Below are positions 8,728 through 29,850 of a DNA stretch of 64,000 nt, piece by piece. The notes below the pieces were generated by a model. The model saw only the letters and a list, made by a program, of their open reading frames with translations. It did no database searches and was not told the origin of the DNA. The DNA comes from Bryum argenteum (Eukaryota; Streptophyta; Bryopsida; Bryales; Bryaceae), in assembly GCA_037043015.1 (NCBI GenBank), contig CM073324.1, positions 6,531,013 through 6,595,012 on the forward strand, in the 5' to 3' direction. How positions within the stretch are numbered: position 1 is the first letter of the stretch; each line of letters begins with the position of its first letter. Position numbers and translations under genes: made by a program.

Positions 8728-9145
8728 TTTTGAATTTTTAGTGGGGAGTTTGTATTTTAGCAAAAAAATTTCTAAAAATAGTTTTTTCAAAAAAATTTGA
8801 GAATAATTTTCGAATATTCTCAAGAATATTTGAATATTCTAGACTTATAACCGTGGATTTAGTGACCCAAACCCGTGGAAATAAGGCTGAAATTCCCTGA
8901 ATTTTGTGAGACTTGAGCGGCAAAACTCGACAGCAAATCACAAATTTTTAAATGTTAAGAGGTTTCTAAGGTAATATTTCTAAGTGAGTAGTACTTTGAG
9001 TTAGACAAATTGGCAAGGTTTGCTGTACATGTATGTAATGGTATAATAAGTTTTAGTAAGATTTGAAAAAATATCACATGTAGTGTGGAGCACCCAATCG
9101 TAATAGTAACATATAGCGTATGTAGATGAGGAGATATAAGGCATT
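8728..9145. other. AT-rich subterminal region of the MULE, no gene
   Basis: A/T tracts with a small local inverted repeat (TTCGAATATTCTC / GAATATTTGAATATTC around 8808-8838). It probably holds the 3' untranslated region of the minus-strand transposase. Nothing coding is seen. Confidence 0.5.
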
Positions 9146-12100
9146 CTAATCTGTAGCATGGTCTAGGATTCCTCCCTCCAGAATCTTCTTCACCTCATTG
9201 AAACTAAGAGTGGCCACGTGGATGAAGAGGTCTGCATCCGGATCAAATTTGCAAACCAATACCGTGATGTAGTATAGGTGCTTGCAAGGTCGGTATGGAT
9301 CTCTCCGTCCTAACGAAGAGATTGTTTTCTTGAACACCGGCATGAGCAATCCGGGAATTTACTAATTGATAGTCTATAAACTGCATCCGAATCCGACTCC
9401 AAGTCTACGATACATCCAAAACCTGGCTGCGGGATCATGGTTACCTTCAGAATTTTGGCCCGCATTGAGGTGGCAGACTCAATATTCTTCATGTGCTTTG
9501 AAGTCATCGCTGCAATGCGTTTCATGTTCTTCGATCTTCTTGACCTCGGGAACACGTCCGGCTTCTCCGGGGACAAGAATATGGGACAAGTTTCTTGGTG
9601 GGGCAAAGCATTATTGAAAGTACGGTTCGTAGGAAGTCGTTTCTTTTTGTGGTAGTCGAAAGCCCGCATTCTCCAACGCCTCCATTTCATCTCGTGTGAG
9701 GTTAGTCCCTATCTTAACAGCCATATTGAAGGAATAGGGGTCTATCCTCGCTTTGAGAGAATGGCTCAATCCACTTGGCGACGATGACCCTTCACACACT
9801 GTCAATATCATCCGCACAAAAAAGAACTCGATCAACTTTTCTTGGCCCCTCTTGAGGGCGTTGCCATACTCCGGTGTAAGTTGGAGCCGCGGTCGCCTTC
9901 CCCTTCGAATAATTCGTGAGTCACATCTTTTTTTACTCTTTCGCATGATACCCCAACAAGCCTTGGCGAAATTCTCCTCAAACGGGCAATGTGCCACAAC
10001 CTTTCGTCAACTTTAGTCTCCGAACAATGGTCACACACGTTCAATACTAGGTCCAAAGAAAAGTGGATGGAAATGTCGGTGGCTCCTCAACTTCATCCTC
10101 TTCATGGATAGTACTCGATTTTCACCAAGGCTCGGGTAACCCTTCTCCCAATTCGGGGGCGTGAGTAGCTCACGGTGTCGGTCCTGTGCGTTTCATCATC
10201 GGCTCAATCGGAACATCACCTTACGTTTCTTGGATCCGAACACCTCGGCCCCCTCAAGGTGGGCGTCTCGGTACTAAATCTTCTCGGCTCCGGATAGTCG
10301 ACACCGCTTTGCCTTTGTGAGGCCGATGGATCGCCAGATTCGTGAAGCTTTATGGGCAAGACGAAGTATGCTTCTTCATATGTTGGTCCACTACCACCCT
10401 TGCCACCTCCGTTGAAGTCGTGGTAACCGACAACTTGGAGGAAAGCACGAACATAATCATCAACAAATACAACGTCTGAAGTCCCCACCCTTGTTGCCGG
10501 ACGCTTGCAACCATTTGTTATGGATAGATTCCGCAAGGTTACATGAAGGCATCTCCGCCAGCTCTTCTGCCGAATATTTATTTTCCTGTAATGTGCAAAG
10601 ACATTTAACTTAGTAACAAAAAAACTTGGTCAAGATATCCGAGTTGTTAGACTTTCGTCACCGAAAGGCTGATCTAAAAATAGATTTTTTAAAAGTTTAA
10701 ATATTTTAAAATGTTGTTACAGTAATCGTAAAAATAAATACTCTATGATAAAAAAGTAAATAAAATTTGCAGATTTCCATGACATAAACGCACGTGAACA
10801 TAATTGTATAGTGGCTGCGGACTCACTAGTTCCATGAAGCCACCCCATTGTCTCAGACGGAAGTGCCGAGAATGCCACCCAGTGTTCAAGGTGACCTAAT
10901 CCAACTTCCGAGGTGGCCTGCGCCGACGCCCACCACGCTCGGATCGCCCAGTATCTTGTCTCCGCCTCAGCCATGGTGCGTGCATCCTTGTATTGCTTAC
11001 AAAGATGTCGATGTTGATCTTGCAGCTCGTGCACGATGTATTGTTTGGTGTGTTTCTCTAGGGATTGCGTCCAATGGAAGTAGCAAGTTCGTTCGCGGCC
11101 TTCCATAGGGACTTTAGGGTCACCGGAGCCGTAAATGATCCGCACAGCGTTCCAGTTGGCTTGCGCACTGTCGGCCATGAACCCTTGAAACTGCGGCGCT
11201 TCCACCCCGTTCCTGCCCATGACGTGGTTTAGGTTCTTCCAGAAGACGATTTGAGCTTCTCCGTCTTCAGACTGGAAATCACAAAGATGCAATAGTTAGA
11301 ATGCGGCGATTTGAGTCATAAACGTGGCACGCCATGGTGGTCCAGTTCTTGACACGCTTGACGTGGTCGAACATTAACCACGCGTGGGACAGGGTGGCCT
11401 CCGGATGGCATCCAACAACAAGGTCAACACCGCTTCCGGGGCCGACCTCGGACATCTTGAAAATGAAAACTTTGTCACCTTCATCTCCTTGGCCCGGGAA
11501 CCGGTTACGTTGGATGTAAGCCCGATTCTTTGAGGCCTCGAAGTTTGGTGATCCCATCGAGACACCGTATCTGCGCAAGTGCTTAAAAGTGGTAATACGA
11601 TTCCGACGCCGGGAGAGTTCAACTCTTTACATTGATCGAAGATAGGTTCTAGCTCCCGGAGGGTGAGCTTGGAGGTTACAGGTCACCTTCTTCACGGAGA
11701 AGTAAGTTTCCGAGTAAGTCCTTGCTAGCCTCCATGACTATTTTGGACGTTGTAGCTTGTGGGTTACGTTCTCACGTGCTCCTCTATTAACTCATCAATT
11801 ATTTTACGTGCACATCTGTAATCTCCGACTTTGACAGGATGTTCGTAGGTACCGATATGCACACACGCCCGCTCTTGACTCTCATCTCCAAATATGTAGA
11901 ATATTTTAGAAGGGCATACAAAGAACACAAACGGGAGGTTCTTTGCGGATCTTACGGACTAGTGTTGAGGAAGGAGGAGGCGCGTGGCCGATCGGGAAGG
12001 GGTCCTTAGTAAAGCCCTCGAACTCCACCTCATTCACCTCTCGCTTTCTGTGGTCGGGCCGTAGTAAGTAGCCGCAATTCCCATTGTGGCATTGAAGATG

Positions 12101-12982
12101 ACCAACACAATTAGAGTAGCGGAAAGACAAACCGAGGTTGTTACTAATGTTAGTAGTCATTGTCCTGGTCCACACATGACCGTCGTATCTTTTGTCCATC
12201 CCTTCCATAGATTTGGCTACCTTGACAAAGATGGTTGGTACAACGGGAGGGAGAACATAGAGGACATCACCGTTGAAAGTGGGAGGCAGGAAAGAGACGT
12301 TGTGAGTACGAATGGAATGGAAATCTATTTTTTTGAGGATAGTTTTGTTGCGAGACATACTACCAAGTCTACGAAGAGAGGAAAGAATGTTTTTGGTTTT
12401 TACGACTTTGGACGCGGGAAGAGGAACGGGGTGGTTCTGCGATGCGCGTTCGAGAACTGAGGAGGGTGGATGCGGATTCGATGATAGTCGACGGGACGCA
12501 TGGACGCTTTTCTTTCATCGTCGGATGAATCGAAATATCGATTCGGACTTGAGTCCGGGTTCGACCTTGACACGAGCAAGAATCGAACAATCTGTGGAGA
12601 TGGTAGAAGAACTACGAGGAGTGAGGAGGACGGTGGAGGCGTTCATGACAGATTCTGTCATGCCGAACGATCGATCTTGTCCGGGTCGTAGCTTATATAT
12701 TCTACAATTCTTGTCTAGGTCGACTGGTTCGACAAGCACAGAGTACTGGACAAGATTAGTGTTTGGATCCATGACATGTTTCTCTAACCAAAGAGATGAC
12801 TCATCAAAACCGAAACGAATTGCTAGCCAAGACGGAGTGACTTCAGCCACTCCGTCCACCCCCGGAGGAATGCAGATGGGAGGACTTAAGTCTTCAGACC
12901 TAATGGCAATGACGTCTGCCGCGGGAGGTAAGGGAGTAGAGGATGCCATGATAGACGTAGGGGAAGAAGACAACATCAACAA
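9146..12982 (-). pseudogene. MULE transposase with SWIM zinc finger, frameshifted
   Basis: Reading from 12982 downwards: an N-terminal disordered exon (12982-12515), then a Cys-rich segment around 12150-11900 with CVGHLQCHNGNCGYLLRP and the remains of a second Cys cluster ending CVLCMPF. The transposase core follows: HAWLMFDHVKRVKNWTTMAC (about 11410-11350), then CDFQSEDGEAQ and GFMADSAQANWNAVR (about 11185), then RTCYFHWTQSLEKHTK. The C-terminus has a CxC...CxH SWIM finger (FPDCSC at about 9350, RPCKHLYYI at about 9280). The domain order matches plant MULE transposases. The core is broken by a one-base shift near 11280 (TIAS|CDFQ), and further shifts fall near 12360, 11900, 10000 and 9340. 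It would cut and insert the element in the nucleus; this copy is most likely dead. The start is the first Met of the longest N-terminal frame. Confidence 0.75.
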
Positions 12983-13501
12983 GTGTGCGGAGAAAGAGAG
13001 TCTCAGGTGCGTTTCGGATGTTCAAATATGAGACATTGGTGTACGGTGTTTGCGTACGTATTGAATACATATCAAACGTTATTTCTTATAATAAAAATTC
13101 CAGATATCGGATACTCTTAATCGTGAGCATGATGATTTTAAAGCACTTTACTTAAAATACTTAAATAATATGAACTGAGAAAACTGCATTAAGTACAAAC
13201 GATTAAAAATATTGGATTCCACGATTAAAAAAGTATGGGTAGACGGTAAAGTGGCGGCGGCAGTCATTGTCAGAGGTTTAGTTGGATAATAGATGCGGTC
13301 AGAAGTTAGCTTATTTTGAATTGTCGACACCACCATGATGGCGGGAATTAGGGAATACGCGTTGGGTGATTAGGGTATCGTAGCCGCATGGAGCAACTTA
13401 TATAATGGAGTTGAGAATTAGGGTTCGACAACTTCATATGCATAGAGAAGTTTTGGACTCGGTATGTGAGACGAGTGATAAGTTATCTCATTGCAAAAAA
13501 G
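12983..13501. other. Non-coding spacer between divergent genes in the MULE
   Basis: AT-rich DNA between the minus-strand transposase and a plus-strand gene, the expected place for both promoters. GAATTAGGGTTCG at about 13415 resembles a plant telo-box. No ORF here looks real. Confidence 0.4.
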
Positions 13502-14238
13502 ATGGATGAAATCGCTAGCGGTAGTGATAGAGAAAAGGAAATAGGTCGAGAGAAAGAAGAAGCGGAGGGGTGGTACGAAGTTCACTAACTCTAAAGCACA
13601 GAGGCGTAGTGCTATGCGGAAGCGTGATGAAAGAAGCTCAAGCGGCGATGATCGGGAGCCTCGGGCGGGTACGATTTCTCGATCGACGATGATGTGCTAC
13701 CGCCATTCAGGCGGACTATCAAGATGCGCTCGCTCAACCGACGGCGATGTTCCGAGAGTGTGGGGGACGGACGAAGGTGAAGAAGAGGAGGACGATGGGC
13801 GTAGCGAGCGATTCAAGACGTCTCTCGATACTCTTTGCGTGGATGGGCATGACGATGGAGGTGTGGAATCTACGCATGAGGTACTAAAGTTTTCTATGAT
13901 ACAATTATGTAAATATTTGTAAAGGTCAACATATTCCTAAATACATATATGGATTAATTACAAAATGGGTTGTCTTCAGGATCGTGTAGGATTGGAAGAG
14001 GTAGACGATGGATCAGGAGATGAAGTAGCATCTTTTGAAGAGAAGAGAGTCACTCAAATCGGTGAGGGAGTCAAGCCACTTGTCGGCGGGGACACAAAGA
14101 TGAGGTAGCGGATGGTTTTGAGACAAGCGTCGAAGAAGTAGAGGAGGTACAAGATAAACCTTACTTCTTGGTTTACTGGGAGGACGTAGGGCTGGTTAAG
14201 TATACAGTCAACGAGAGTTCTTTCTTCAGTATGACGTA
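13502..14238 (+). CDS. Hypothetical acidic protein in the MULE (probably decayed)
   Basis: An ATG at 13502 begins MDEIASGSDREKEIGREKEE and stops after 28 codons. Two further open stretches with the same acidic/Ser-Arg character follow. One runs 13614-13880 and ends at a plausible donor (GAG|GTACTA). The other begins after TTCAG at 13979 (DRVGLEEVDDGSGDEVASFE) and, after a frame change near 14090, runs to a stop at 14238 with VQDKPYFLVYWEDVGLVKY. I do not recognise the family. Its position next to the methyltransferase gene suggests an accessory protein, which is a guess. Confidence 0.3.
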
Positions 14239-14564
14239 GTTCCGAATTTTGACATGATATAGATACTTGATATATAAGGACATAGGACTGAGTAATATAT
14301 GTCGTAGACTGCAAATAATACGTAACAAGCGTAATTCAAATTCACATAACTTGCGTATTCAAATGTATGAGAGATGGATGCAAATATTAGGACTTTCTGG
14401 AAAAATATTAACGAGTGTCATGATCTCTTGGTGTCATACATTTTATTCATATTTATATTAAGTGTACAACCTAAGTGCGGTAATAAAAAATACAGTACAT
14501 TGTGTTTATGAATTCATTGGAGACATAGTGTTGTACTAGAAAATTTAACAGTAGGTATTGTCCC
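14239..14564. other. AT-rich spacer, nothing recognised
   Basis: No coding signal, repeat or terminal structure could be supported here. Confidence 0.4.
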
Positions 14565-14960
14565 AAGGTTATCCGCCCCATGTCCGTCCCCATCGTATCC
14601 GCCCGATGTCCGTCTTGATGGTATACGCCCGATGTCCGTCTTGGTGGTATCCGCCCATTGACCATCCCCATGATATCCGCACGATGATCGTCCCCATGTT
14701 ATCTGCCTGATGTCTGCCCTATGGTATCCGCCCGACGTCCGTCCACATGGTATCCGCCACATGTCCTTCCGAATATATACGCCCGATGCGGGTCCCCATC
14801 CTATCTGAACGATGTCCGTCCCCATGGTAACCGCCCGATGTCGGATCTTCCATGGTATCCGCCCGATGTCCGCTATTCGATGGTACCCGCCCGATGTCCC
14901 GATGAGGCCATGGTACCCGCCCGATGTCCAGTAGGCCATGGTACCCGCCCGAACATCATG
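14565..14960 (+). repeat. Minisatellite, about 25-33 bp, CCGCCCGATGTCC core
   Basis: About 13-14 degenerate copies of CCGCCCGATGTCCGTCCCCA followed by TGGTATC. The long open frames on both strands here are by-products of the repeat. Confidence 0.88.
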
Positions 14961-15370
14961 CTTCCCGCCGAGCAGGCCACGCCAGTCTCCGATGATTCCT
15001 GCGAGGTCCATGTTCGCGATCCATGAACTTCTCCGCGGCAACAATGTTTCGGCGTAGCTATGGCGACCTCGAGTCCCCATACATCGCGCCATTGCTAGAA
15101 CCTTGCATTAAATTGTTCCAGCCGATTCGGTTGGAATACGCGAGTTAATGACTCAATGGGGATTATATTTCTAGAAAGTGTCGGGTAGTTGAGAAAAAGC
15201 CTTGGAGGAGAAATTGTCCCACTCATAATAGAATCCGACTTTGTCGAGAGAGGTAGCTATATTTAACAATAGCAATTGAGTGGACGTCATCAATCACGAT
15301 AAGAACAATGAACGTTCAGGGCCTCTCTTTCCTTCTGAAGTGAGGGTGTTTCATCAATTTCCAGTTAGGG

Positions 15371-15627
15371 TTGGAGGAAGGAGGTGCAGTAGCAGAAGTG
15401 CAGAGAGGAATGGCGCGAATGCGTGAACAAGATGAAGTAACGAATCGGCTAGAAGAAGAGCACGTCGAGTTGGATCTGGAAAATGTGAGTACGCAATCGT
15501 CAGAGTCCAGCTTGTTCGCGGAGTTTTACACGGAGTATTACAGATCACATAGTTGTCCATCAAAACGAGATGCAATCAAAACGCGGGCCGAATTGGAAGC
15601 TTTCTACTTCAACCGCTTGAAGGTGAG
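15371..15627 (+). CDS. Coiled-coil exon upstream of the methyltransferase gene
   Basis: An open frame from 15371 (first codon TTG, so the true start or acceptor is uncertain) reads a charged helical segment (RGMARMREQDEVTNRLEEEH) and then ELEAFYFNRLK. It ends at a strong donor, AAG|GTGAGT, at about 15627. A TTAGGGTT telo-box-like sequence lies just upstream at 15365. It may be the first exon of the ParB/methyltransferase gene, with the tandem array at 15847-17880 as its intron. No confirmed acceptor has been assigned. Confidence 0.4.
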
Positions 15628-15846
15628 TATGGAAATCTAGAATCCTTGAAATTGGGTCATTGCCGCTGGCTTGACTTCGAGCTTAGAAGTGCTGGACTGC
15701 ATTGGACCTTTTTGCATGAATCGGTTTGCTCCAGGATGATGATCGAGCTGGTAGCAGAGCTTAGATGGTCGGATGTGAAATGAGTGGGAGGGGTGCATGA
15801 ATTGAATGTTATGTGAGAGTGCCCTCCTGATGTTTTTCGGGCGAAG

Positions 15847-17880
15847 TCAAGCTCTGTTCTTGCCAATGGTTGATTGAATTTGAGCCCTCGAGGCAGTTGT
15901 TGGCACGATGGCACGCCCAGGAGCACGTCTCAGTAGAGCTGGCTTGACTTCGAGCCTCTCGGGATGCGGCATGTGGAACCAAGGTTTGAGCCCTTGAATC
16001 CTCTCGATTATGCTTGCTCGGACTTGAGCCCCCGGAAGCGGATGTTGGCACGAAGGGCCCTGACGCGTGAGCTTGCTTGGTCCTGGTGATGGCTTTTGGG
16101 GGGAAGTGGAGCGCCGCCGCCTTTTCGTCCACGCAAGGTCGGGGAGGCTAGCTCGTTTGTGATTTTCGTTATTGTTTTTTGGCACTTTTGTGAAGTTTGT
16201 GCAGCACCTTTGACGGGGGGTTGGTCGTTTTGGTGAAGAGCCCCGTGTTGTTCTTCTTCGGGCAAAGTCAAGCCCATTGTTGAGATTGGTTGATGGAATT
16301 CGAGCCCCGGGCGGCGGAATTGCTGGCACGATGGCACGCCCGATGCCACGTCGCAAAGAGAGCTGGCTTGACTTGAGCCCCGGGATGCGGCATGTGCAAC
16401 CGAGGCGAGCCCTTGAATCCTCTCGATTATGCTTGCTCGGACTTGAGCCCCGGGAAGCGGATGTTGGCACGAAGGGGCCCTGCTGTGAGCTTGCTTGGTC
16501 CTCTGGTGATGGCTTTTGCGGGAAGTGGAGCTGCGCCGCCGCCCGACCTTTCGTCCACGCAAGGTTTCCGAGGCTAGCTCGTTTGTGATTTTCGTTATTG
16601 TTTTTTGGCACTTTTGTGAAGTTTGTGCAAGACCCTTGACGGGGGTTGGTCGTTTTGGTGAAGAGCCCCCGTGTTGTTCTTCTCGGGCAAAGTCAAGCCC
16701 CTGTTGTTGAGATTGGTTGATGGAATTCGAGCCCCGGGCAGGAGAAATTGGTGGCACGATGGCACGCCCATGCCACGTCGCAATGAGAGCCGGCTTGACT
16801 TGAGCCCCCGGATGCGGCATGTGCAACCGAGGCAGAGCCCTTGAATCCTCTCGATTATGCTTGCTCGGACTTGAGCCCTTGGGAAGCGGATGTTGGCACG
16901 AAGGGGTTCTTGACGCCGAGCTTGCTTGGTCCTGGTGATGGCTTTTGCGGGAAAGTGGAGATCTACCTCTAATTTTTGTCCACGCAAGGTGGGGAGGCTA
17001 GCTCGTTTGTGATTTTCGTTATTGTTTTTGGCACTTTTGTGAAGTTTGTGCAAACCTTTGACGGGGTTGGTCGTTTTTCCAAGAGCCCCCCGTGTTGTTC
17101 TTCTCGGGCAAAGTCAAGCCCCGTTGTTGAGATTGGTTGATGGAATTCGAGCCCCCGGGGCGGCGAAGATCTGACACGATGATGGCACGCCCATACCACG
17201 TCGCAAAGAGAGCTGGCTTGACTTGAGCCCCCCCTGCGGCATGTGCAACCGAGGCGGCGAGCCCTTGAATCCTCTCGATTATGCTTGCTCGGACTTGAGC
17301 CCCGGGTGGGAAGCGTGATGTTGGCACGAAGGGGCCCTGCTTTGTGAGCTTGCTTGGTCCTCGTGATGGCTTTTGCGGGGAAGTGGGAGACGTGCTTTTG
17401 GATTCAACCTTTCGTCCACGCAAGGCATCTTTCCAGGCTAGCTCGTTTGTGATTTTCGTTATTGTTTTTGGCACTTTTGTGAAGTTTGTGCAAAGACCTT
17501 TGACGGGGGGTTGGTCGTTTTGGTGAAGAGCCCCCTGTTGTTCTTCTCTCGGGCAAAGTCAAGCCCTTTGTTGAGATTGGTTGATGGAATTCGAGCCCCT
17601 TATTTAAAAAAAATGGCACGATGGCACGCCAAAAGCCACGTCGCGAGTTGAGCTGGCTTGACTTGAGCCCCCGGGATGCGGCATGTGCAACCGAGGCGAG
17701 CCCTTGAATCCTCTCGATTATGCTTGCTCGGACTTGAGCCCCGGGAAGCGGATGTTGGCACGAAGGGGCCTGCTTTGTGAGCTTGCTTGGTCCTCGTGAT
17801 GGCTTTTGCGGGGGAAGTGGAGCCACTGCCCGCCCTCCTCTCGTCCACGCAAGGTCAGGAGGCTACCTCGTTTGTGATTT
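15847..17880 (+). repeat. Tandem array, about 425-bp unit, nearly five copies
   Basis: Copies start at 15847, 16268, 16693, 17115 and 17559 (spacings 421-444 bp), marked by TCAAGC...TTGAGATTGGTTGATGG. Each contains ATTCGAGCCCC-like runs, CCTTGAATCCTCTCGATTAT, TTGCTTGGTCCT and TTCGTTATTGTTTTTTGGCA. Copies differ mainly by indels in G/C homopolymers. Long minus-strand open frames of 250-270 codons here follow from the repeat and have no recognisable domain. Confidence 0.93.
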
Positions 17881-18232
17881 TCAATCTTTCAACATTTTCT
17901 TTTACTTGATTGAAAGTTAGTGAATTTCGGCTAAGTTGAGGCCTGATCTTGGTTTTCTTTGTGGAAGTAGTGCTTTGTTTTTGTTTTTGGGGTTGAAGTG
18001 GAGCGTTGTTCTTGGTTTGCTTGGGTCAAGTGTAGCCATCATTTAATTTTTCTAGTTTGAAATTTCATACTCATTGTTCCATTACATATGACTATTTGGT
18101 ATATGAAAGTTAATGTTCAATATTGGTGTTAACATCGGGAAATTACTTACCTTTGATTTTTTGAGGTTTTGCGGGATCCGTTGAAGCGACGAAAGTTCAT
18201 CGTGAGGAGGATTCTGGATCTTTGAGAGCGAT
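17881..18232. other. Short non-coding stretch before the methyltransferase gene
   Basis: T-rich sequence ending in TTTTGAGGTTTTGCGGGATCC. It could contain the acceptor of a long intron over the tandem array or the promoter of the next gene. Nothing firmer is visible. Confidence 0.35.
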
Positions 18233-21200
18233 TTGTCAACTTTGAGAGATCATGTCATGGTTTGTAGTAGAGTCTCGTCGTTTAGTGATACCTTTGTCTT
18301 CTCAGACCGAAACTCCTCCTCCGGCCTCCCCGTCCGTCTCACTTCACGTGTTGACGTTGATCGGGTTGCACGAGCGGTTAACATGCAAATTAACCAAAAT
18401 GAGGCCAAAGCTAGACGTACTCACGCAAATGCATTAGCAAGAGTTACCCCAAGACGCTCTCCCGTCTTGCCGCAAAATTGCGCTCAACTCAATTGTATTG
18501 TCTGATGATTTGATGACTTTATCATGAACTTAATTATAAAGTCGTTGTGTTTTTTATATCTTATCGCTTTGTTAACTTGACACATTCTTATTTTTTTGCG
18601 TGTTGTGTTGTACTTGGTTTCTATAATGCCGTATGAACATAGCTCAAGTCCATACCGATGAAGATGACAATACCACCCCCTCTTCTTCTTCCTTCACCGC
18701 ACGACCTCTCTCGTGCGTTAGAGATGAACACGATCGTGAATCTCTCCCAAATGATGGTAACCTTTGCGGTGGAGTCCCGGAAGATTGTCCTTCCGAAATT
18801 CACCGTCATCCTCAAGCGTTGCAAGAACATGATGGATGGACACTATTTCCGAAGATGAAGACACTCCGTTGCGGGGAGTGTCAATGTTGGAATCATCCAT
18901 ATGCCAACTCATCTTCAAGACAAAGATCCCGATTGGAGTGCAAATGAAATGAGAATGATTCAAAAAGTGACTCCATTGCGATCATTAACGGTTTCGATTC
19001 AAACCTGTTAAAAAGTCTCGCATGCTAATTCCTTTGTGTCGTCTCGTATGCTATCCTAAGGTTCGTCCTATTTCGAACAAGACGTGAGGAAGTTGGAGAA
19101 TGAGTTCAACAAAGGCTATCGGGAGGCGATCGGGTGATGTACGTTTCTCCCTTCGATAGGAAAGGGAGAGAGAAGTCTGGTTCTTTCGAAGATGCGGTGT
19201 GGACAAATCCTCCGTGGAAAGTCGCAAATGAAGAGTTCGAGACGATCTTTGAAGTCCGATCCTCGATCTTCAACACCTAGAGTGGCAAGTATTATTATGT
19301 GTACGAAGGTAACCACCGGGTTACCGCTTGGATGCGTCGTATTGAAAGGTACCACAAGATGGATCCTTCTTGGTACATATCGATTGGTCGCATCGTTCTC
19401 GATGCTCGTGGAGAAAGCAATCTCCTCCTAGACGCCATGAACGACATAAATTGGTAAGTACTTGTCACATTCATTCTAATTATGTTCTTGTATATTCAAC
19501 TATGATATATCTCGATATCGATATCGATGTGTAGGTCTACGGAACATGACCATGTTGAAGACGGTCATGTGCAAAAATTACAACGCATGAGAAAATTTGG
19601 AAAATTGAAACTTGAGGACTTCAAGGACCTTATCTCCCGGAGGATTACAGAATTTGCAAGAACGCCAAAGCTAAAAAGAAACTTGGTATCCGGTTACACT
19701 TGACGTTTTCGTCAAATTCTTGTATCACGGTAGGTTTATGTTTATGTGCTATATCGTTATAATTTGCTTTCGATTTTTTGCACCTTTTAACTACGTTATA
19801 AATTATTTACAGAGGAGGTTAGCGAAAGCATCCGACGAGGCTGAAGCATCTTACTACGCCACTGTTCCGAAGGATAAACAAACAGGGCCGGGAGTTTGGA
19901 GTGCCATGGACAACGCCATCAAATCAGAAATTAAGTCCATTCGTGGCAAAAATTTCGACAAAATGGTCGCTGTCGCCAACAACAAACTTGGGAAAGTATT
20001 CCCAAAAGAGGTATTTTTCGCATTCTACTCAAATTCAATATAAGCCTAATCGTCTTTTTGACCTTTATCACATTCAAACTTTGTCAATCTCCTTCATGCG
20101 CAGATATACTCTCATTACAGCAATAACCACAAACCGGATATGACAATTGATCGTTTGCAAATGGTAGCCACCACGAACGTGCACTTCGATTACAAGGGAA
20201 AGTGGCTGCAATGGTGGAACTCATCCTCCGAAGCTCGTCGATCTGTTCACTTTCCAGAGGACCGGCCAATGAAAGATAAATCATTGCTTGCTTTCCTCCA
20301 TCGCGCATCACTTTGGGCACAGGTAACTTAAATGTATTTTCCGTGTTTTCTATTTTACTGGCTTTACAATATTTTAATTTCTAACAAAAATTCTTCTTTT
20401 CCAGCTAGAGCAATCCCTTTCAACTGAATTGCAGAAACTAGCGGAAGATGACAATCTCAACATTCAATGGAATGATTCCGTCTTAAAACCATCCGAGTAC
20501 GTTGAGAAGTGGAGGTTGCTTTTATGGGAGAAGGCATTTGGGAACTACCTTTCTCTTAATGCTAGCCCAAGGTTCATTAAAGGCTCCGATCTTCAAAGGA
20601 TTGGTGGTGGCAAAGTTACAATAAAACGTCTTTTATTCCGGTATGTATATCTATTATGTTTTCAATGTAACATAATTTTTGTTTATCATTCAATTACATC
20701 ATTCTAATTTCTTCCCTTGAATGTAGGTACTTGAAACAAGAGCTTCTTGCGAAAGGAGCACTAGCTTCTTGGTCCATTCCCGTCGAGTTCGATGACGTCT
20801 CAGTCGCCAACGATCCCTCCACCTTCTTCTCCAGTGACCAACAGAGGCGGTTTACCACAACACACCATCGATCGGTGGTTGGTTCCTTGAGTGCCAGGAT
20901 AACTTCGTTCATAAGGAGGAGAAGCATCTTATTCGAAACCTCGGTACAAGCGCTGCTGGCACCGCACCTATGGAGATAGACAACGATGACGACGACGAGG
21001 ACCTCTCCATTTTGCCAGCCGCACCTGCCCTTCTCTCTTCACCTCCTTCTGCTCAACCGCTCAAACGTCGGGCCAACAAAAAACGACGCAACGCTGTAGC
21101 GGAGCCTGTAGTAGATCTTCAAGAAGAATCCGAAGAAATTCCTCCCCTCGCAACAGACATCCAAGGTCCAGAAGAAGCTGATTTGACTCAGGCATCAGAT

Positions 21201-22920
21201 GGTGCGACCAACAATGCACGTAGACGCGGTCGACAATTGACTCAGCTTTCTGCAGGCGCTCTTACAAATGCAGGGTCTCCTCCTCAATCTGTCACAGCCG
21301 ATCACAACTCCGGAAAGAAGTTCGCTTCACTCCCATTTCTTGAACCGAAGCATGTTGCTGAGTGTTTGTCGTCTGAGATTACAATTTCTCTTCCAATGTA
21401 CTTGGAAAAAGGGGACATCGGAGCTTCTGTTCAAAAGGCAGCTCATGAAACCAAGGATTGGGACACACAAGTCATGGACATCATCAACCACATCAGAAAG
21501 GTATTGTGTCTTAATTCTTTTCTTACATTTTTTTATTTCTTAAATTTTGATGGGAACAGATCGCTTACAACATGTGTCATTTTCTGTGATTTCCAAAGAT
21601 TGGAAAAGACAGGAAGTACCCATGCAAGGAGATGGGTACGAAACACCCCCATCCCGGCATTGATCTCCTCTACGCAGACGTTCCCGAGAACTTACCCGTA
21701 CCTGACGTGTCGCCCGCCGAAATCCCGTCATGGAACAAGCGTGAGAAAAGCTACTTCGAGAGTGTGTTCTTTTTTGCTTTCTACAACTTGACAGACGAGG
21801 GTGCGATACTTGTTATGCATCCCAAGGACCGTCGAGTCGAGAAAGCTCTGGATGCCGAGTCGAAGGCTTTCGATTTCCGAATGGTGCGAGATTGGTGGGG
21901 ATATAATCCCATGCCAATGGCCTCAACAAACCCACACGTGAAAACGGTATGGTCTTTATTATTCTGCATTAAAATCATCGTCTATGATTATTTACAACGT
22001 TTCTTTAAATCTCTCTCATCTATTGAATTTTGCAGACACACAACTTCCACATTAAAGTTTTTGTTCGGAAGTCATTTGCCACGAGATTCTCCATAAGACA
22101 AGTTGCGAAAGAGTACGCAGGTGTGCCTATTCTTCCCGACGAGGAAGATCATGTTTTCAATTTTGCGAGCAATGACTCCATTCGTAAGAAGGAAGATGGT
22201 ACTCCGTGGCGTGGCTCGCGAGAGAAGGATCCCTCCTTCATCCAAAGGTGTTTTATAGATTCTCTCACGACGAGCGGGGGAATCGTCTTTGACTGGAGCC
22301 CTAGTCTTTGGTTAGTTGTTGCTAATACCAACTCTCATTCAATTTATTCAAGATCGTAGTTCGATGTTGGTTCTTTGGTATGTAGGTGCTTCCGTGATTG
22401 CTGCGCGCGATCAAACAAACCGTCATCTCATTCTTTGTTGAAGGCGATGAAGAGATATTTGACGACTTTTATCGGCATACGTCGATGGTACCGCTTTTGA
22501 GGAAGAAAGCGGTGATTCCGGTCCAAGATATATGACTACGACGGTGACACATCTCAACCGCTTTTGAAGAAGCAACGCCCAACATTTTGTGCGTATTTAT
22601 CTCTTACTTTCCTCCCCTTCTATTGTCACCTTCAATTGGTTGAAATTTATTGGTATTGACTTTTCTGTACTTTTAGGATCGCGAGTTCGAACCGACGCGT
22701 TTGATTGGCAACGGAAGTCTCTACAGATCCTCCTCCGCAAACTTTCACCCTTCCATCTTATGCGGAGCGGATAGCTCAAGAATTTGTGGCTCGCCCTTCT
22801 CCCGTCTTATCGGACAAGAGTAGACGTCAACGCTTTAGCTCAAGAGTGCTTGCGTTTATAGACGATGAGGCTGATCAGTGTGACCAACACTTTAGTGGCC
22901 GTTCACCATCAGCTTCCTAG
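18233..22920 (+). pseudogene. ParB-like plus DNA N4/N6-methyltransferase fusion, transposon-borne, frameshifted
   Basis: A multi-exon gene. After a disordered N-terminus (18233-18960), a ParB/sulfiredoxin-like core reads YYYVYEGNHRVTAWM (about 19290-19335) and continues through LLLDAMNDIN across a clean intron (19453-19534). Exons 19813-20010, 20104-20322, 20405-20640, 20727-21500, 21599-21946 and 22036-about 22308 follow, with phase-compatible GT..AG borders. They give a helical region, an acidic linker with a nuclear signal (KRRANKKRRN, about 21068-21097) and the methyltransferase. Its motifs run in the N6_N4_Mtase order: DLLYADVPE at 21662-21688 (where DPPY is expected), GAILVMHPKD, DWWGYNPMPMASTNPH, then GGIVFDWSPSL (to about 22308) and, after another intron, ASVIAARDQTNRHLI. 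Stops and frame changes near 18855, 19010, 19275, 19670, 20850 and 22435 mean this copy cannot make the whole protein. The likely role is DNA base methylation serving the transposon; the family call is mine by motif and unverified by search. Confidence 0.65.
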
Positions 22921-23762
22921 GTGATTTTATTTTCTTAGTTTTGGTTTGGACCATGTAGGGTCGTATATTTATAGTTGACCTACGGCATTGGTCATACGTG
23001 TGGTTTTGCTATACCTTTTTTTATATATATATATGACGTTTACCTATTACTTATCAACGTTTTACAGTTTCTTAATTCATGTAAATGTTAAACTTTTAAA
23101 CTCGATGCCAACTAAAAGTTTCTAAACATTTCTTTATTTCCAGTTTGAATTTTTTGAAACTTGCCAATGATGGTAGGGGTTCTAGTCTAGTATTTGTATA
23201 GCTCAGGATAGTCACAAAGACGACGCAATGCAACGCTCAAACGAGGCCGAGGAGAATCGAACTCGGACCACTACAATGCCACGTGAAATCATGAATGTCT
23301 TTCTGTTCACCTTTCAAGGAGACATGGAAGGACGACCCGTAGTTATAATTTTCAGATTATATAAACTGAATCATCTGCATATAATTCTAACATGTGAAAG
23401 AGGAAATTGATGACGTCAGCCCTAATTAGTCTCTAAATCCTAAAAGAATAAATAAAACTTATTGATTACCGAAATGGCTATCTCAACTTTTGGTTTATAT
23501 TTTGTATTTGATTAAAATTGAATTGGTTACACATGATGATGCGAGCCCATAATTTAATTGACTTTCATTTAAATTTGCAAATGTGGATTAATTATGTAAT
23601 ATTGTAGGACCCCATTACCATATATCGAAATGGATACAGTACCCTATGTCCACGGTTTTGGGTACTTTTATGCCTAAAAATAACCATTTCAAAATTTTAA
23701 AACCACCTATTCCATGGTAATAGGGCCATTAACTTTTAAAATTTTTATTTCTTACCGCTCGA
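22921..23762. other. 3' region of the methyltransferase gene up to the MULE terminus
   Basis: AT-rich, no gene. It contains a tRNA T-arm-like motif at 23226-23279 (minus strand). ACCCAAAACCGTGG-like words here, on the opposite strand, echo the left subterminal region (CCCAAACCCGTGG at about 8869). Confidence 0.5.
23226..23279 (-). other. tRNA T-arm-like (B-box) motif shared with the LINE 3' region
   Basis: On the minus strand GGCATTGTAGTGGTCCGAGT is followed by TCGATTCTCCTCGG and CTCGTTTGAGCGTTGCATTG. The GAGTTCGATTCTC part fits an RNA polymerase III B box and forms a hairpin (CCGAG/CTCGG). An almost matching block occurs at 36222-36278. No full tRNA cloverleaf can be built. Confidence 0.45.
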
Positions 23763-23818
23763 ACTTTACCGCTCACCGCTCACCGCTCACCGCTCAACGC
23801 TCACACCCGTGGTTTCCC
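23763..23818 (-). repeat. Right terminal inverted repeat of the MULE
   Basis: ACCGCTCACCGCTCACCGCT and CAACGCTCACAC (23766-23806) are the reverse complement of the left terminus, with one extra GAGCGGT unit. The outermost bases on this side read GGGAAACCACGGG inward. Confidence 0.8.
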
Positions 23819-23829
23819 CACAACGCTGT
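23819..23829 (+). repeat. Target-site duplication of the MULE, right copy
   Basis: CACAACGCTGT, identical to 8661-8671. It is followed by TCATA-rich sequence that belongs to the interrupted CACTA element. Confidence 0.75.
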
Positions 23830-23889: not shown

Positions 23890-24703
23890 TGTGCCTCACT
23901 ATATGACTCTATGATGTTATGCGGCTAGAGTCATATGAGTGTCACAAAATGCTCTGAGTGGTAATATGTTCTTACCAAAACCGACATTGTGACTAAAACC
24001 AGTCATCTCTCTCTTGCTCAAAAATTGAATTACAGATGACGTTCTTAGAAACATGACTAATTGACTACAGAAAGTTACAACAATCCCGAACTGAAGGCTT
24101 TTCATCGGCCCAAATACGACTAAACAAAGTCATATTCGACGTCAGCCTAAATATCATGACCAACATTATCACACACAATATGACTCCATAGAGTCATATT
24201 CCACCATAGTCTCAAAATGTGACAGGCACCCACATTTCACGTACTCCACATTATGACAAAATGCATGACCAGCAAGAGTCACATTCCACGTCGACCTATA
24301 ATATGACGAGCGAAATCGTATTCCACGTGGCGCCGCCACGCAGCAAAAAAATACGACTCAATAGAGTCATAATCCACGTCAGCAAAAATTGTGACTCGCC
24401 ATAGTCACATGCCACGTTGGATTTTAGGCTCAGCTGCCCGGGCAGGTCAAGAAAAGTCGTAGTCAACAGGTGGGTCAAAATGGGGGCGAAAACGCTGACG
24501 TGGCACGTACATTGGCCCTAAGTATACGTTTCAAGGCGTATTTATTTATATGACAGGCTGTCTGAAGCGACTCGTCGGTAACTACTAGACACTGTCACCG
24601 CGCGCGTCATGTGATGATAGACCCATTGTAGTCATATTTTTGGATTTTATGACTCTGCACAGTCATAAACGCTAGTCATGAAGTGTAGTATTCTGCCGTA
24701 GTG
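23890..24703 (-). repeat. CACTA subterminal repeats and right terminus
   Basis: About twenty scattered copies of GAGTCATA/AGTCACAT/ATATGAC-type words in both orientations (for example 24186, 24275, 24364, 24400), ending in the reverse complement of CACTACGGCAGAATACTACA at 24684-24703. Such clustered short repeats near a CACTA terminus are the binding sites of the TNPA/TNP1-type protein in characterised elements. Confidence 0.7.
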
Positions 24704-24717
24704 AACGGTGGTCCGGC

Positions 24718-25813
24718 ATGGTAAAGATTCACCTCAAGAACCCAGACCTTGACGGAATAGGGTTACTGCAAGGTACACGGATTTTTGCCATGCTGCTTGA
24801 TGATGAAGTACCCACGATAGCTAAGGTCGCCAAGTCCTACGACTCGCTAGCGTCAAGCAGCTTGCTATCAATAAAAGTCTCAAGCGACACCATACGTGAA
24901 TTGGAAGCTCATCACCTATTCAAGGAAGTCGTTGAAGATAGCTTCCGAAGGGGGCTCGAGTACGAGGTCACGCAAACGCAGAAGGCTACAGGAGCAGCAT
25001 TCGGCTGGATTGTCACCACCTCCCCGGAGCAGATGAAGAAACTCAACGCTGGCCGCATCAGCATCCTTGGTGAGCTCCTGCGACCCACAGTAATCAACAA
25101 GGATCATCTATCGAGAGAAGGAGTTATCAAAAGAAATTGCCTGGTATTTGAACCTGAACAAAACCGCTGATCAAACTACTGAAGCACTGAAGACTTTCCT
25201 GGGCGAGAAGAACATCTCTTCGGTTTATTATCCGCATGCCAAGCCGCCTCTCCACAATGGCGTCGTCAACATGGAGTGCCTCAATACCCATGTTTACAAG
25301 CAACATGTACACAAATCAGCAAAAATTTGTGGCAAGTGGGTCGAGTTTCAGCCACATCCGAACAGTCTGGACGGGAGCGCTAAGCCTGACGAAGAAACTC
25401 TAAGGAAACACGGATTTTCGGACATCACCACTGCTCTAGCCAACACTGTTGTTGCGTTGCAGAATGCCCCAGGACCAAGCAATCCAACTCTCACCAAGGC
25501 AGACATAACAACAATCGTGGAAGAAGTTGTGACAAAGGAAAACAACAAACTGAGAGAAGAGTTCAAGACCGATCTCACCTCCGCCAAAAACGAAATTTGT
25601 GTTGAAGCGCAGGTGTACGCAAACCGAATCGATCAGGAGCTTCGGGGCGCCTTGGCCAACTTGGAGCAGATTATGATGCAGAGCGTGCAAGTTGTGCGCA
25701 ACCTGACACGCCCTTCGATCCAAGCTGCGCCACACCCCAACAATGCAACAATGACGAACCCTCCATCGCCTGCAAACAACACAACACCACGAGGTCAGAT
25801 AAACAAGCCATGA
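24718..25813 (+). pseudogene. LINE ORF1 (gag-like, RRM-like fold possible), one frameshift
   Basis: The first frame (24718-25170) begins MVKIHLKNPDLDGIGLL and contains AFGWIVTTSPEQMKKLN. The second (25148-25813) starts in the overlap and contains EALKTFLGEKNISSVYYP, then KWVEFQPHPNSLDG and GFSDITTALANTVVAL, a coiled-coil part and a Pro/Asn-rich tail. The two read as one protein broken by a one-base change between about 25117 and 25148. The beta-alpha-beta pattern around EKNISSVYYP...KWVEFQPHP looks RRM-like, as in other LINE ORF1 proteins, which bind the element RNA. The frame is open upstream of 24718 right up to the CACTA terminus, suggesting that the insertion removed the true N-terminus. 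Confidence 0.65.
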
Positions 25814-27532
25814 TAAACATCGCCATCGTTGACGTAGGAAAAGTGCGGACACGAGAAGCTGCTTCGAACTCCAACGGAAGAGAAACAGCTCCAAAAACAA
25901 GAAGCAAGTTCACAGAAGCTCAAAGGCCGCATGAAGATTGCACAAGTACGCATCGAATAAGAAGCAAGTCCAGAGAAGATCAAAGGCCGCATGAAGATTG
26001 CCGCCATCGACTTTGCAGGTTGCCATGGCCCCGCTCTCCCACAAACCCTATGCTCATGATCAGACTGCTCAGGTATATCTCAATCAATCTCAATCTCATG
26101 ATTGATAGCTATGTCATTATCACAAAATATCATCTGTTACTGCAAACCATGCAGCCTCATATATTTCTTTTTGAAAAAGCAAAAATAAACATCAGAAAAC
26201 CCCAGTTGTCTTTCTCGTTCAAAAATTGTTTTGCTTATTCTGAAAGCAATGAAACTCTGGACCCTTATGGAGTTACCTTGTATAGAAAGATCATTCGAAC
26301 TAGGAAAAAAAAAAGAAAAAACACCAAAAAACCCCAGATGTGTGTGTCGTCCAAAAGATTTACATTCTTAAATAACAAAAATATGGACCCATATTGGATT
26401 GTTTTGAATAGAGTAATCATTCGACCTACCCCAAAAATTAAGACCAAATACATTAGTACACGCACCTGTAAGGGACACAACCTTTTGTATTCCCCTTATC
26501 TAAACTACAAAACAACAAAATCACTTGATTCTATGCCTGAACAAAACAAAATATACAAAACAATAATAACAAAATACAAACACATAAACACGACTACACC
26601 ACAAGATGCACATCCCATGTCTTGTAGTAATGGACATAGGCTCAATGACAAGACGCTTTATTTACGCCAACCTCAAAAATGATTGGAATTTATACCTATA
26701 TGTACATCCCATAAACAAAATAACAAAAATACCCATGGGCTCATATGACCAAAAAAGACTATACATAAGTAGTTGTTTTCTCCAAAAACCTGGATTGTAT
26801 CTTGCATATGAACTATCATTTATGCAAAAAAAAATTACACACCCATAAAACTCTCCCATATATGCTTTCATTTCCCCCACAAAACACTCTATTCACACCG
26901 ACCTCATGAAAGGTTCAAATTTAAATCTATCTATCTTTCTTTTCATTATCCCCACAAAACAATAAAAACCCGTGATATAATATATACAACATACACAAAC
27001 GCTACAAAAAACCCCCACAAAAATAACCCTTACAAAAAACCTCACATATACCCATTCATCCATAACTACAATATACAAAAGAAATAATAATAATAAGAAA
27101 CACCAAACTAACAACTTAACATACTCATACATATTATCATATTCACAAGAACAACACTATCCCTTCAAACCAAGAAAATTACAAAAATCTCATTGGATTA
27201 TCCCACATATAGTGTCCGTTCGACCCACCCTTAGAAACACATCCATATCCGAACACACACCCAAAAAACACACAAAACTCTACACCTTCTTTTTGCAAAC
27301 TATAAAACAAATGAGAACCTTGGCCTGAAGAAACATCTCCTCTCACAATCAAAAACCAAACCAAGTAAATTATATCATTATAATAGCTACAATCAATAAA
27401 ACTAAACCTCAAATCTTAGAGAATGATAAAATCACGAAAAAAATAATAAGAAGAAGAACTATTCAACACTTAAACACTTCCAAACACCAAAAGATAGATA
27501 GATACGAATGCGGTTCCTCTTTCAAGACCGCC
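25814..27532 (+). other. Spacer between LINE ORF1 and ORF2 with copies of the LINE 3'-end hairpin
   Basis: A frame from 25810 overlaps the ORF1 stop (ATGA) but soon becomes a short duplication (AGAAGCAAG...CAAAGGCCGCATGAAGATTG twice, 25900-26000) and low-complexity sequence, so I do not call it a gene. Degenerate copies of the LINE 3' terminus (TTTATTCACGCCGGCCCT...then TATC repeats) lie at about 26649-26695 and 26885-26939 in direct orientation and at 27493-27541 inverted. Confidence 0.6.
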
Positions 27533-29089
27533 ATGAATAAAATTTCTATCTTTCTTCACAATGAGCTAGTGCTCATAAAACACCAAAACATTGTACCAAA
27601 ACCAATATATAAAAAGCCTTTCACGTCGGCCCTTAAAGAGGACCGGAGTTCACATCTATCTATCTATCTACAAACACCTCCAACAACAAAGAATTACACA
27701 CCCAACAAGCAAACATGTCAAAAAATAACAACCATTATAATAGCAAAAATCAATAAAACTAAACATCAAATCTTAGAAAATGATAAAATCGTGAAAAAAA
27801 TAATAAAAATAATAACTATTCAACACCTAAACACTTCTAAGCACCAAAAAATAGATAGATATGAATGCGGATCTTCTTTCAAGACCGCCATGAATAAAGT
27901 GTCCATTCGTCGTATCAACCCACACTCCACCAACTACCCTAAAACACAAAAAGTTACATTAACAAACCACACACAACGCACGCCAAATATTACAAACGGA
28001 GCTCGGCCTCCCGGCCTCGCCGATAGAAAACAACCCCAAAATATAGTATACTCTAAACAAAACAACTCAAAAAGAAAACAAAGCACCCCAGCAAGAGACA
28101 AACACTTAATCAAAATCTACATAACACAAAAAAAACAACCCTACCAACCTTTCGGTCTCGCAAAAACTAAAAATAGGTTCACCCTAACTGATAAAAAATC
28201 AAACCTAAATAATAACTCCAAGCTAAAACTCACAATCACAAATCACACACACCTCACGCCTTGTTTAACTATTCGAGCTCGGCCTCCCGACTTCGCCTAT
28301 ACAAAGATACTCCAAAATAAAACCAACACGAAACCAAAGAATGTACAAAAATTGTACAAAAAACCCTACACTATCAACAACATACATACATACCATTATA
28401 TATACAACAAAAAATACCACCTAACAAAATGCGGCGACATAGAAACCAACCCCGGACCCATGCCAAACATACTCAAATCACATCCACCCGCACATAGACA
28501 TAGAAGCAAACTTTACTTCATACCATGCACAATTCGTCTACACCCTGAATACCAACACCTAGCGACTCAATTCTCTCCATGTTTAAATACCACTCACCAA
28601 AAACATCACGAAGCAAACTTGACCTATCCACACCTCACAAAATACATCCAAGAAAACCGACATCACCCAACACCGCACATTCTATATGCCTTGATCACTA
28701 CCATAAACCCAACACCCATAACATGTAACCACATACTCGCACATTCACCTGACCCAAACTGGACTACCATACTACTTGATAAAATGTCTACACTTCAAAA
28801 CCCACCCGAAAGACACCTCAACAATTTACACCCTTACACAAAATTCAAAAACGAAAACCCTACCCTAATAAACCCTCCCAACACTATACACAAACAATTA
28901 TATAAATACATTCGACAAAATACCACACCACCCAACCAACAAAACTTAAAAGACAAATTCCCATTTCTTCCCGACAAACTACTTGAAGCAGCCCTTAGAT
29001 TCAACGAACCCATACCCGAATACTCCCACCCCCCTAGCACCAATAACATCGCCCCTGCAAAATACTACACCAGTCACCACGAACCATAA
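27533..29089 (+). CDS. LINE ORF2 N-terminal region with 2A-like peptide
   Basis: A 518-codon open frame. Its first 300 codons run through repeats (hairpin copies at 27616-27669 direct and 27852-27898 inverted, and a duplication with GAGCTCGGCCTCCCG at about 27995 and 28278), so they may not be authentic protein. The reliable part begins at about 28360. It contains CGDIETNPGP, then a conserved-looking region (CTIRLHPEYQHLATQFSP, FPFLPDKLLEAALRFNEP) of unknown function. It ends at TAA 29087-29089, overlapping the APE frame by about 100 bases, so a frame change is needed to continue into the endonuclease. Confidence 0.55.
   Translation: MNKISIFLHNELVLIKHQNIVPKPIYKKPFTSALKEDRSSHLSIYLQTPPTTKNYTPNKQTCQKITTIIIAKINKTKHQILENDKIVKKIIKIITIQHLNTSKHQKIDRYECGSSFKTAMNKVSIRRINPHSTNYPKTQKVTLTNHTQRTPNITNGARPPGLADRKQPQNIVYSKQNNSKRKQSTPARDKHLIKIYITQKKQPYQPFGLAKTKNRFTLTDKKSNLNNNSKLKLTITNHTHLTPCLTIRARPPDFAYTKILQNKTNTKPKNVQKLYKKPYTINNIHTYHYIYNKKYHLTKCGDIETNPGPMPNILKSHPPAHRHRSKLYFIPCTIRLHPEYQHLATQFSPCLNTTHQKHHEANLTYPHLTKYIQENRHHPTPHILYALITTINPTPITCNHILAHSPDPNWTTILLDKMSTLQNPPERHLNNLHPYTKFKNENPTLINPPNTIHKQLYKYIRQNTTPPNQQNLKDKFPFLPDKLLEAALRFNEPIPEYSHPPSTNNIAPAKYYTSHHEP
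28433..28459 (+). other. 2A-like ribosome-skipping motif (GDIETNPGP)
   Basis: The codons read G-D-I-E-T-N-P-G-P, a full match to the 2A consensus D(V/I)ExNPGP, followed by ATG. The motif makes the ribosome omit the bond between the last G and P, releasing the upstream chain. It is known in picornaviruses and in some non-LTR retrotransposons (trypanosome and animal LINEs). Here it would separate an N-terminal peptide from the ORF2 enzyme. Confidence 0.8.
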
Positions 29090-29850
29090 AACACATTTAG
29101 TAACTTGGAATGCCTCATCGCACAATACCGCCCTTCCAAATCTACACGAACTAATCACTAACACACAAACAGGCCCTGCTATTATTGCAATACAAGAAAC
29201 TAAACTAACGGCCACAAAATCCACCAAATACCTTCAGAACCTATTTCCAGACCACAAACTGATCTTCAACAATACACACGCCTTGACACGACGTGTACAA
29301 CAACGAATGGCATATACACCCACAAGAGGGGGTCTACTGCTATTCATAAACAACAAATACACATATCCAAGAAATATCACTAAAATCCCAACCCCTATGG
29401 AAATATCACCATACTTACAAATTATAAAAATAAAAAACGAACCCCTACAACCGTCGTTACTTATACACATGTATATGCCATCACACCCAGAGGACACCCC
29501 CTATTTAGAATTAATCCAACAACAGATAACACAACAAATTGCAGCACACCCTAACCACACCCAAATACTTTGAGGAGACTTCAATAGAGACATAGCTCTT
29601 ATAGGTCGCCAACACGACTCAAACACATCCCCACCACAAATCGAGGATATAGACTGGCGAACATTCATAAATACCCTACAACTAACGTACGTACCAACAA
29701 ACACTACATATACCAGACAAGGTGGCCAAAATTACAACGAAAAACGCCTAATTGACGGCTTTTATATAAAAACCCCCACAATAGTCTATACATATCATCA
29801 ACTATTACGGAACATAACCTTAATTCGGACCACTCTCCGATTACTCTAAA
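28983..29850 (+). pseudogene. LINE APE-type endonuclease domain, with nonsense and frameshift
   Basis: All APE landmarks are present: HLVTWNASSHN (Asn), IAIQETKL (catalytic Glu), GGLLLFI, HMYMPSHPED (Tyr), GDFNRD (Asp/Asn) and, in another frame, SDHSPITLKIP (Asp/His). The frame is closed by a TGA at 29571-29573 directly before GDFN, where related enzymes usually have Trp (TGG), so a single G-to-A change is likely. A one-base shift between IDGFYIK (about 29750-29773) and SDHSP (about 29827) breaks it again. The enzyme would nick target DNA to prime reverse transcription. Confidence 0.85.

Follow-up and report, generated by a model that had tools for sequence, protein, structure and literature searches.

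What does a gene that pairs a ParB-type domain with a methyltransferase-like domain do inside a plant transposon? The question is raised by a 64,000-nucleotide stretch of the moss Bryum argenteum (assembly GCA_037043015.1, contig CM073324.1, positions 6,531,013 to 6,595,012, forward strand), which we call the window. It holds a complete DNA transposon of about 15 kb (8672-23819) with terminal inverted repeats (TIRs) at both ends and 10-bp target-site duplications (TSDs) flanking it, and the gene lies within this element. The initial annotation had proposed that the element captured a prokaryotic or phage modification gene and uses it to write N4-methylcytosine (4mC) or N6-methyladenine (6mA) on its own DNA. 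We find the gene as a whole best explained as an accessory-protein gene of the TIR transposon, a reading to which we give a probability of about 0.62. Its changed catalytic residues suggest that the product is a helper protein for the transposon and not a plain DNA-methylating enzyme. The anatomy of the element and gene, as described below, is almost certainly correct.

We took the gene structure from an undisrupted copy, L010, among the twenty 10-kb stretches of the same genome that were fetched as the copies studied; the exon limits in the window are those of the L010 gene mapped back on it (Table 1). In L010, 10 exons separated by nine introns, all GT-AG, encode 1168 amino acids with no break in the reading frame. 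The window gene spans 18633-22920, also in 10 exons, and encodes first a ParB/Srx-type domain, then a long middle region and a linker, and last the methyltransferase-like domain. The middle region matched no family in profile searches. As assembled, the window copy has an in-frame TAG and many frame-breaking indels; exon E8 has zero indels relative to L010. The introns and peptides first reported for this gene are all there: YYYVYEGNHRVTAWM near 19281-19330; DLLYADVPE, GAILVMHPKD, and DWWGYNPMPMAS in exon 21599-21946; GGIVFDWSPSL in exon 22036-22310; and ASVIAARDQTNRH from about 22390. Since the gene belongs to a high-copy family in the genome, these peptides are not chance. The gene had been placed at 18233-22920. 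It is real and ends at 22920, but it starts near 18633; we excluded 18233-18470, which is the last exon (18224-18469) of a separate upstream gene. In L010 this ..RRSPRLAAKL exon closes with a stop ahead of the ParB gene.

The ParB-type assignment was borne out by the fold. A structure model of a relative, together with structural matching, recovered the ParB/Srx fold, which is that of the N-terminal, CTP (cytidine triphosphate)-binding domain of ParB. The second structural match was a phage protein annotated 'DNA methylase' (E 1.5e-2). At the nucleotide site there is a GxxR-type motif, GNHR, with G, N, H, and R each present in at least 90% of 81 aligned sequences; the canonical ParB motif is GERR, unlike GNHR. 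Canonical ParB partition proteins further have a helix-turn-helix that binds parS, a dimer domain at the C-terminus, and CTPase activity. A ParB-like PHROG family was matched in 4 of 4 sequences (best E 0.0046) and in 18 of 81 (best E 0.0021). The ParB Pfam families matched 0 of 81 sequences, a comparison of the ParB part with PDB sequences gave nothing relevant, and phage matches to the ParB part alone were at chance level (E 5). The structural matches also include SbnI, free serine kinase, and sulfiredoxin, and ParB/Srx-fold domains include nucleases and nucleotide-using enzymes. Both points could favor a ParB part that is a nuclease, in a protein acting as a restriction-like or end-processing enzyme; we consider this very unlikely.

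The second domain had been likened to N6_N4 methyltransferases, and profile comparisons showed it to be homologous to the permuted (beta-class) N6_N4 amino-methyltransferases of phages. PF01555 matched the METHYLTRANSFERASE part in 5 of 5 members of alignment A1, which represents the window's clade (best E 3.5e-4); member 1 scored 20.1 bits, under the curated cut-off of 26.7, over profile positions 33-217 of 221. It was also the sole Pfam family at E ≤1 in the whole L010 protein (15.9 bits, E 0.013, below the cut-off) and the sole Pfam family in a protein of the moss Ceratodon purpureus (E 0.0024). A six-frame search of the genome with PF01555 (258.8 Mb in 25 contigs; all own-genome match counts given here are lower bounds) listed 32 matches, and the window's own exon was not among them. 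A divergent ParB-methyltransferase clade (L059, L060, L063, and L064; contig C4 near 20.498 Mb and contig C7 near 9.878 Mb) was just at the cut-off in L059 and L060 (26.8 and 26.7 bits). Its C-terminal block resembles phage methyltransferases: an unannotated record from a fecal phage matched at E 3e-7 and 43% identity, and an annotated adenine-specific methyltransferase at E 2e-5.

When profiles were compared, the window's clade matched a set of six phage proteins (A6) at E 2e-7 over 54 columns, and an alignment that added the divergent clade (A7) matched them at E 7.5e-10 over 60 columns, both within motifs I and II only. The second value is biased upward, the phage set having been picked by similarity to the clade inside A7; the first is less biased by that choice. 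The motif I block lies in the C-terminal half, which is the permuted order. Scans with single pieces were silent or weak (best E 0.029), but we rejected a reading of them as no homology: the alignments and the divergent clade led to PF01555 and phage methyltransferases. Against PDB sequences, the best matches of the methyltransferase part were mt-SAF13 (E 0.26) and then DpnA (E 0.64), and a predicted model of the Ceratodon methyltransferase part had a pLDDT (predicted local distance difference test) of 43.

Does this domain still methylate DNA? The window's clade has neither the catalytic motif [DNS]xP[YFW] nor the glycine-rich S-adenosylmethionine (SAM) motif I. Motif IV lies outside the aligned stretch and was located by position: with residue 54, where the PF01555 match begins, at profile position 33, the profile's first position falls on DLIYADVPEN. 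The own-genome exon rows read D[VAI]PEN in 25 of 27 cases, NAPEN in 1, and DAPKN in 1, with an aromatic in 0 of 27; these rows represent 25 distinct places, as L003 is the window, L004/L009 and L008/L011 are pairs, and L012 fell under the length limit. Among 17 related proteins, the 12 that cover the motif (the Ceratodon protein and eleven from public sets) have E, D, or S at the fourth position and an aromatic in 0 of 12. In the six named phage proteins, motif IV is DIPY (1), DLPY (4), or DPPY (1) and motif I is TMGSG, where the window's clade has a degenerate xSTG in place of MGSG. The motifs given for known N4C/N6A amino-methyltransferases in the available portion of PMC8885841 are SPPY, DPPY, NPPY, DPPY/F, and DPPW.

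These differences count against an active modification enzyme that writes 6mA or 4mC on the element's DNA and lets it escape or redirect host 5-methylcytosine (5mC) silencing. The earlier proposal of such self-modification is not supported: the aromatic is missing from all 27 and all 12 rows, and motif I is degenerate. In its favor, the homology to phage adenine-specific methyltransferases is true homology, the domain is under purifying selection (see below), and the first proline of motif IV varies among the phage relatives, so that D-x-P is tolerable. The divergent L059/L064 clade, which reaches the PF01555 cut-off, alone reads DTPF at motif IV (motif I, DLTASTG), and judged from these residues activity somewhere in the family is possible. 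We nevertheless regard an active enzyme as improbable; to judge by its motifs, the protein of the window's clade is quite probably not a DNA methyl writer. A further subfamily, L061 (C6:17233241), reads DIPEG and ILDWFASTG and lies beside a reading frame that by eye is gag-like.

Is the altered domain merely decaying? The initial annotation had called for a search for further copies, and there are many. When the genome was searched in six frames with the two methyltransferase-like exons, at least 201 matches came from the best 150 of 1588 first-look candidates scored, with the exons of one copy counted apart. Beyond the intact copy L010, there is one long relative in another plant, M758_6G158200 of Ceratodon purpureus, a hypothetical protein of 803 amino acids that aligns to 73% of the query at 48% identity (E 4e-226). 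The gene model of this protein starts at the middle region and so has no ParB part; its motifs are DAPEG and FDWSASTG. Between clades, the ratio of nonsynonymous to synonymous substitutions (dN/dS, Nei-Gojobori) was 0.026-0.034 for the ParB exon (from the 2 usable pairs of 7, between sister copies and with dS >2), 0.075-0.167 for E8 and 0.087-0.135 for E9 (4 of 7 pairs each), 0.065-0.152 for middle exons where usable, and 0.26-0.67 for the linker; saturation of dS affected 5 of the 7 ParB pairs and, in each methyltransferase exon, 3 of the 7. Given these low ratios, purifying selection appears to be maintaining the altered methyltransferase-like domain rather than letting it decay.

Transposons do capture genes, and many copies of this one are broken as assembled, as would suit a captured passenger with no role for the element. 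However, both the ParB exon and the methyltransferase exons have a dN/dS far under 1, and the order of ParB, middle, and methyltransferase-like regions is conserved between the window's clade and the divergent clade L063/L064. A passenger is thus extremely unlikely.

The gene probably derives from a prokaryotic or phage ParB-methyltransferase. The capture that had been postulated is likely by homology, but the donor search, at the sensitivity of a pattern scan, turned up nothing related in viral contigs or in prokaryotes sampled at one genome per species. The fold matches indicate that the pairing itself is not alien to phages: a 479-amino-acid protein of Mycobacterium phage Vincenzo, annotated as a DNA methylase, has the ParB-type fold, and other phages have a homologous methyltransferase C-terminal block. 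The moss gene differs from the phage proteins in having about 500 extra residues between the domains, introns, changed catalytic motifs, and a setting in a eukaryotic transposon.

The TIRs, 10-bp TSDs, and transposase-like gene confirm the location in a mobile element. A 22-bp start pattern occurred 390 times in the genome at ≤2 mismatches, an end pattern 348 times, and a sister end pattern 209 times, with 0 occurrences of each reversed control; the two end-pattern counts overlap, as these patterns are two bases apart and two mismatches were allowed. The 3' end ..CGCTCACACCSGTGSWTTCCCC, or a variant with ≤3 errors, was present in the window (23819) and in 18 of the 20 fetched loci; a search at the same tolerance did not find it in L016 or L024. 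At 10 of 10 additional start/end pairs, hand-picked from the listed 5' ends of contig C1 alone, we found 10-bp TSDs, 7 of them perfect and the other 3 differing at a single base. In copy B, which belongs to a sister subfamily, just 8 bases are common to the two flanks, TGGCCAGC. Mutator-like elements (MULE/MuDR) have TIRs and 8- to 11-bp TSDs, and the present element is Mutator-like in habit. The KDZ family was thought less likely: Zisupton, the sole KDZ lineage compared, makes 8-bp TSDs according to the available part of PMC12730594, against 10 bp here.

How might the protein serve the element? ParB domains load at specific sites and form clamps with CTP. In the explanation we prefer, the ParB domain would load the protein, in the nucleus, on the GAGCGGT iterons in the TIRs or on the tandem array. 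The second domain would no longer transfer methyl groups to DNA bases and would serve as a DNA-binding, perhaps SAM-binding, module; a methyltransferase fold minus the base-stacking aromatic could still bind DNA. Once loaded, the protein would help the element move or hold off host silencing, and the element would retain it for this action on its own DNA. That the protein does act there has, in our judgment, about an even chance.

Transposition alone might be the process served. The protein would then bind the GAGCGGT iterons of both TIRs and pair the ends for the transposase, with silencing uninvolved, by analogy with accessory proteins of other plant elements. The window element and copy B each have GAGCGKT iterons at their two ends, and 18 of 20 fetched loci have them at the 3' end with some variation. 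Binding to repeated sites and bridging of DNA are known for ParB proteins, and the tandem arrays, the other candidate site, are not conserved. However, the transposase itself may bind the iterons. We consider this cofactor role somewhat unlikely as a full account; it is compatible with the accessory-protein explanation.

A bolder proposal, which we rate a long shot, is a self-marking system derived from a phage ParB-methyltransferase. Here a CTP-dependent ParB clamp would load onto the element, spread over it, and block or overwrite host methylation, through a divergent working methyltransferase site in the DTPF clade or through simple occlusion in the D[VA]PE clade. We know of no ParB-type clamp that serves a selfish element in a eukaryotic nucleus, and such a system would be the first. 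The question raised is whether a ParB clamp protects a transposon from plant silencing.

The closest functional parallel is VANC of the Arabidopsis VANDAL (MuDR) elements, which in the available parts of PMC5735166 and PMC10398659 desilences its own family via noncoding tandem repeats. According to the same portions, VANDAL elements combine a transposase with two further genes and fast-changing noncoding tandem repeats, features like those of the moss element, which may likewise protect its own copies. VANC carries DUF1985/DUF287 there and its function was shown, whereas the L010 protein has neither domain at E ≤1 (Pfam) and its function is inferred. Anti-silencing is therefore a guess by analogy, and a transposition role is as good; that the protein counters silencing rather than assisting transposition is a tentative view, at well under even odds.

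The closest parallels for gene capture are two. Fungal DNA transposons carry TET/JBP dioxygenases, that is, a captured DNA-modification gene probably directed against silencing, but these belong to another enzyme family, oxidize 5mC, and occur with other transposase families and TSD lengths (available part of PMC12730594). Dinoflagellate and charophyte retrotransposons carry their own DNA methyltransferases (DNMTs); these are host-origin C5 cytosine enzymes, shown to methylate CG, in retroelements and not TIR elements (PMC5890265, in the portion available). The N4CMT of bdelloid rotifers is, like the moss domain, a prokaryotic N6_N4-type amino-methyltransferase captured by a eukaryote, but it is a host gene with SPPY, shown 4mC activity, and a chromodomain fusion, and the available text of PMC8885841 describes no transposon. 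Transposons with epigenetic tools (TET/JBP, DNMT, VANC) are thus already known. What appears to be new is the pair of a ParB and an N6_N4-type domain, for which we found no report in a eukaryotic TIR transposon in the open-licence PMC literature. It shows a bacterial or phage module maintained by selection in a selfish plant element despite altered catalytic residues.

How broken is the window copy? Between some near-identical copies, the differences fall mostly on CAG/CTG triplets; in the window this concerns 15905-17882 and 18600-22920. These triplets were changed at 13 of 33 sites between L004 and the window, 21 of 52 between L006 and the window, 29 of 51 between L006 and L001, and 12 of 33 between L004 and L002. 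In these four pairs, six other triplet classes changed at about 11% or less and CCG/CGG at 8-22%. The CAG/CTG changes include transversions and indels. The effect was weaker in L018/L025 (CAG/CTG, 12/98; CCG/CGG, 6/103) and hardly above CCG/CGG in L013/L014 (59/212 versus 42/161), and there was no clear excess of CAG/CTG indels in L005/L007, L005/L008, or L026/L027. Four 428-bp units of the tandem array are near-identical save for short scrambled patches at fixed places. Consensus error at CHG-methylated cytosines would explain the CAG/CTG differences most simply; the alternative is directed mutation. If consensus error is the cause, the window copy may be more intact than its assembled sequence suggests, its frameshifts may be artefacts, and the element would be methylated by the host.

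Table 1. Features of the transposon and its genes in the window
Feature	Position	Strand	Basis or remark
5' TSD, ACAACGCTGT	8662-8671	.	Same letters as 23820-23829
5' TIR, iterated GAGCGKT units	8672-8730 (inner end approximate)	+	Starts with GGACGTTGCTACCGTGTGAGCG at 8672
Transposase-like gene, broken as assembled	9149-12787	-	tblastn with proteins of copies A/B
Probable third gene, first exon(s), RRGGTKF... region, with stops as assembled	13502-13771	+	E 9.5e-7 by tblastn with copy A
Tandem array of 4.6 copies of a 428-bp unit, flanked by the third gene's two blocks	15905-17882	.	Repeat detection
Third gene, last exon (..RRSPRLAAKL), frame-disturbed	18224-18469	+	tblastn, E 4.7e-16
Exon E2, ParB/Srx-type domain	18633-19453	+	GNHR at 19308-19319; TAG at 19278-19280; nine 1-bp indels relative to L010
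Exon E3	19535-19728	+	L010 mapping
Exon E4, middle region	19813-20010	+	L010 mapping
Exon E5, middle region	20104-20322	+	L010 mapping
Exon E6, middle region	20405-20640	+	L010 mapping
Exon E7, linker	20727-21500	+	Acidic runs; KRRANKKRR stretch, by eye a possible nuclear signal
Exon E8, first half of the methyltransferase-like domain	21599-21946	+	DVPE (21677-21688) in the place of motif IV
Exon E9, second half of the methyltransferase-like domain as far as motif I	22036-22310	+	FDWSPS..
Exon E10, end of motif I and motif II region	22386-22592	+	ASVIA...EEIF
Exon E11, C-terminal tail	22677-22920	+	Stop at 22918-22920
3' TIR, iterated ACCGCTC units, ends ..GTGGTTTCCCC	23765-23819 (inner end approximate)	-	End-pattern matches
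3' TSD, ACAACGCTGT	23820-23829	.	Perfect 10-bp direct repeat with 8662-8671
Fetched loci with an array 5' of the ParB exon			L010, L012, L013, L014, L017, L018, L019, L022, L025, L027; some with about two units only

The other genes of the element were traced through its copies (Table 1). The first part of the transposase-like gene matched copies A/B by tblastn in three pieces at 52, 86, and 93% identity, and the second part matched at 37%. By eye, the gene has a conserved DDE-like block and a C-terminal CxC...CxH (SWIM-like) motif. Pfam gave no MULE match for it, and SWIM appeared at the expected place at E 0.1, below the cut-off. The best tblastn block in the first exon region of the third gene, with copy A as the query, was 13548-13658 (E 2.5e-8), and we infer that this region and the exon at 18224-18469 form one gene. 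Of the fetched 10-kb loci, 17 contain the ParB exon, and 10 of these have a tandem array with units of at least 100 bp on its 5' side; L009, without a ParB exon, has an array of 12 units. Eight arrays compared with one another shared no common words beyond chance. A minisatellite (26-bp unit, 14.7 copies) occupies 14562-14952, between the pieces of the third gene. Just 3' of the transposon, 24682-25813 contains open frames of a possible retroelement ORF1-like protein. Farther on, 26001-36000 shows a strong strand asymmetry, with a GC skew of -0.28 to -0.54 and a positive AT skew in every 2-kb step.

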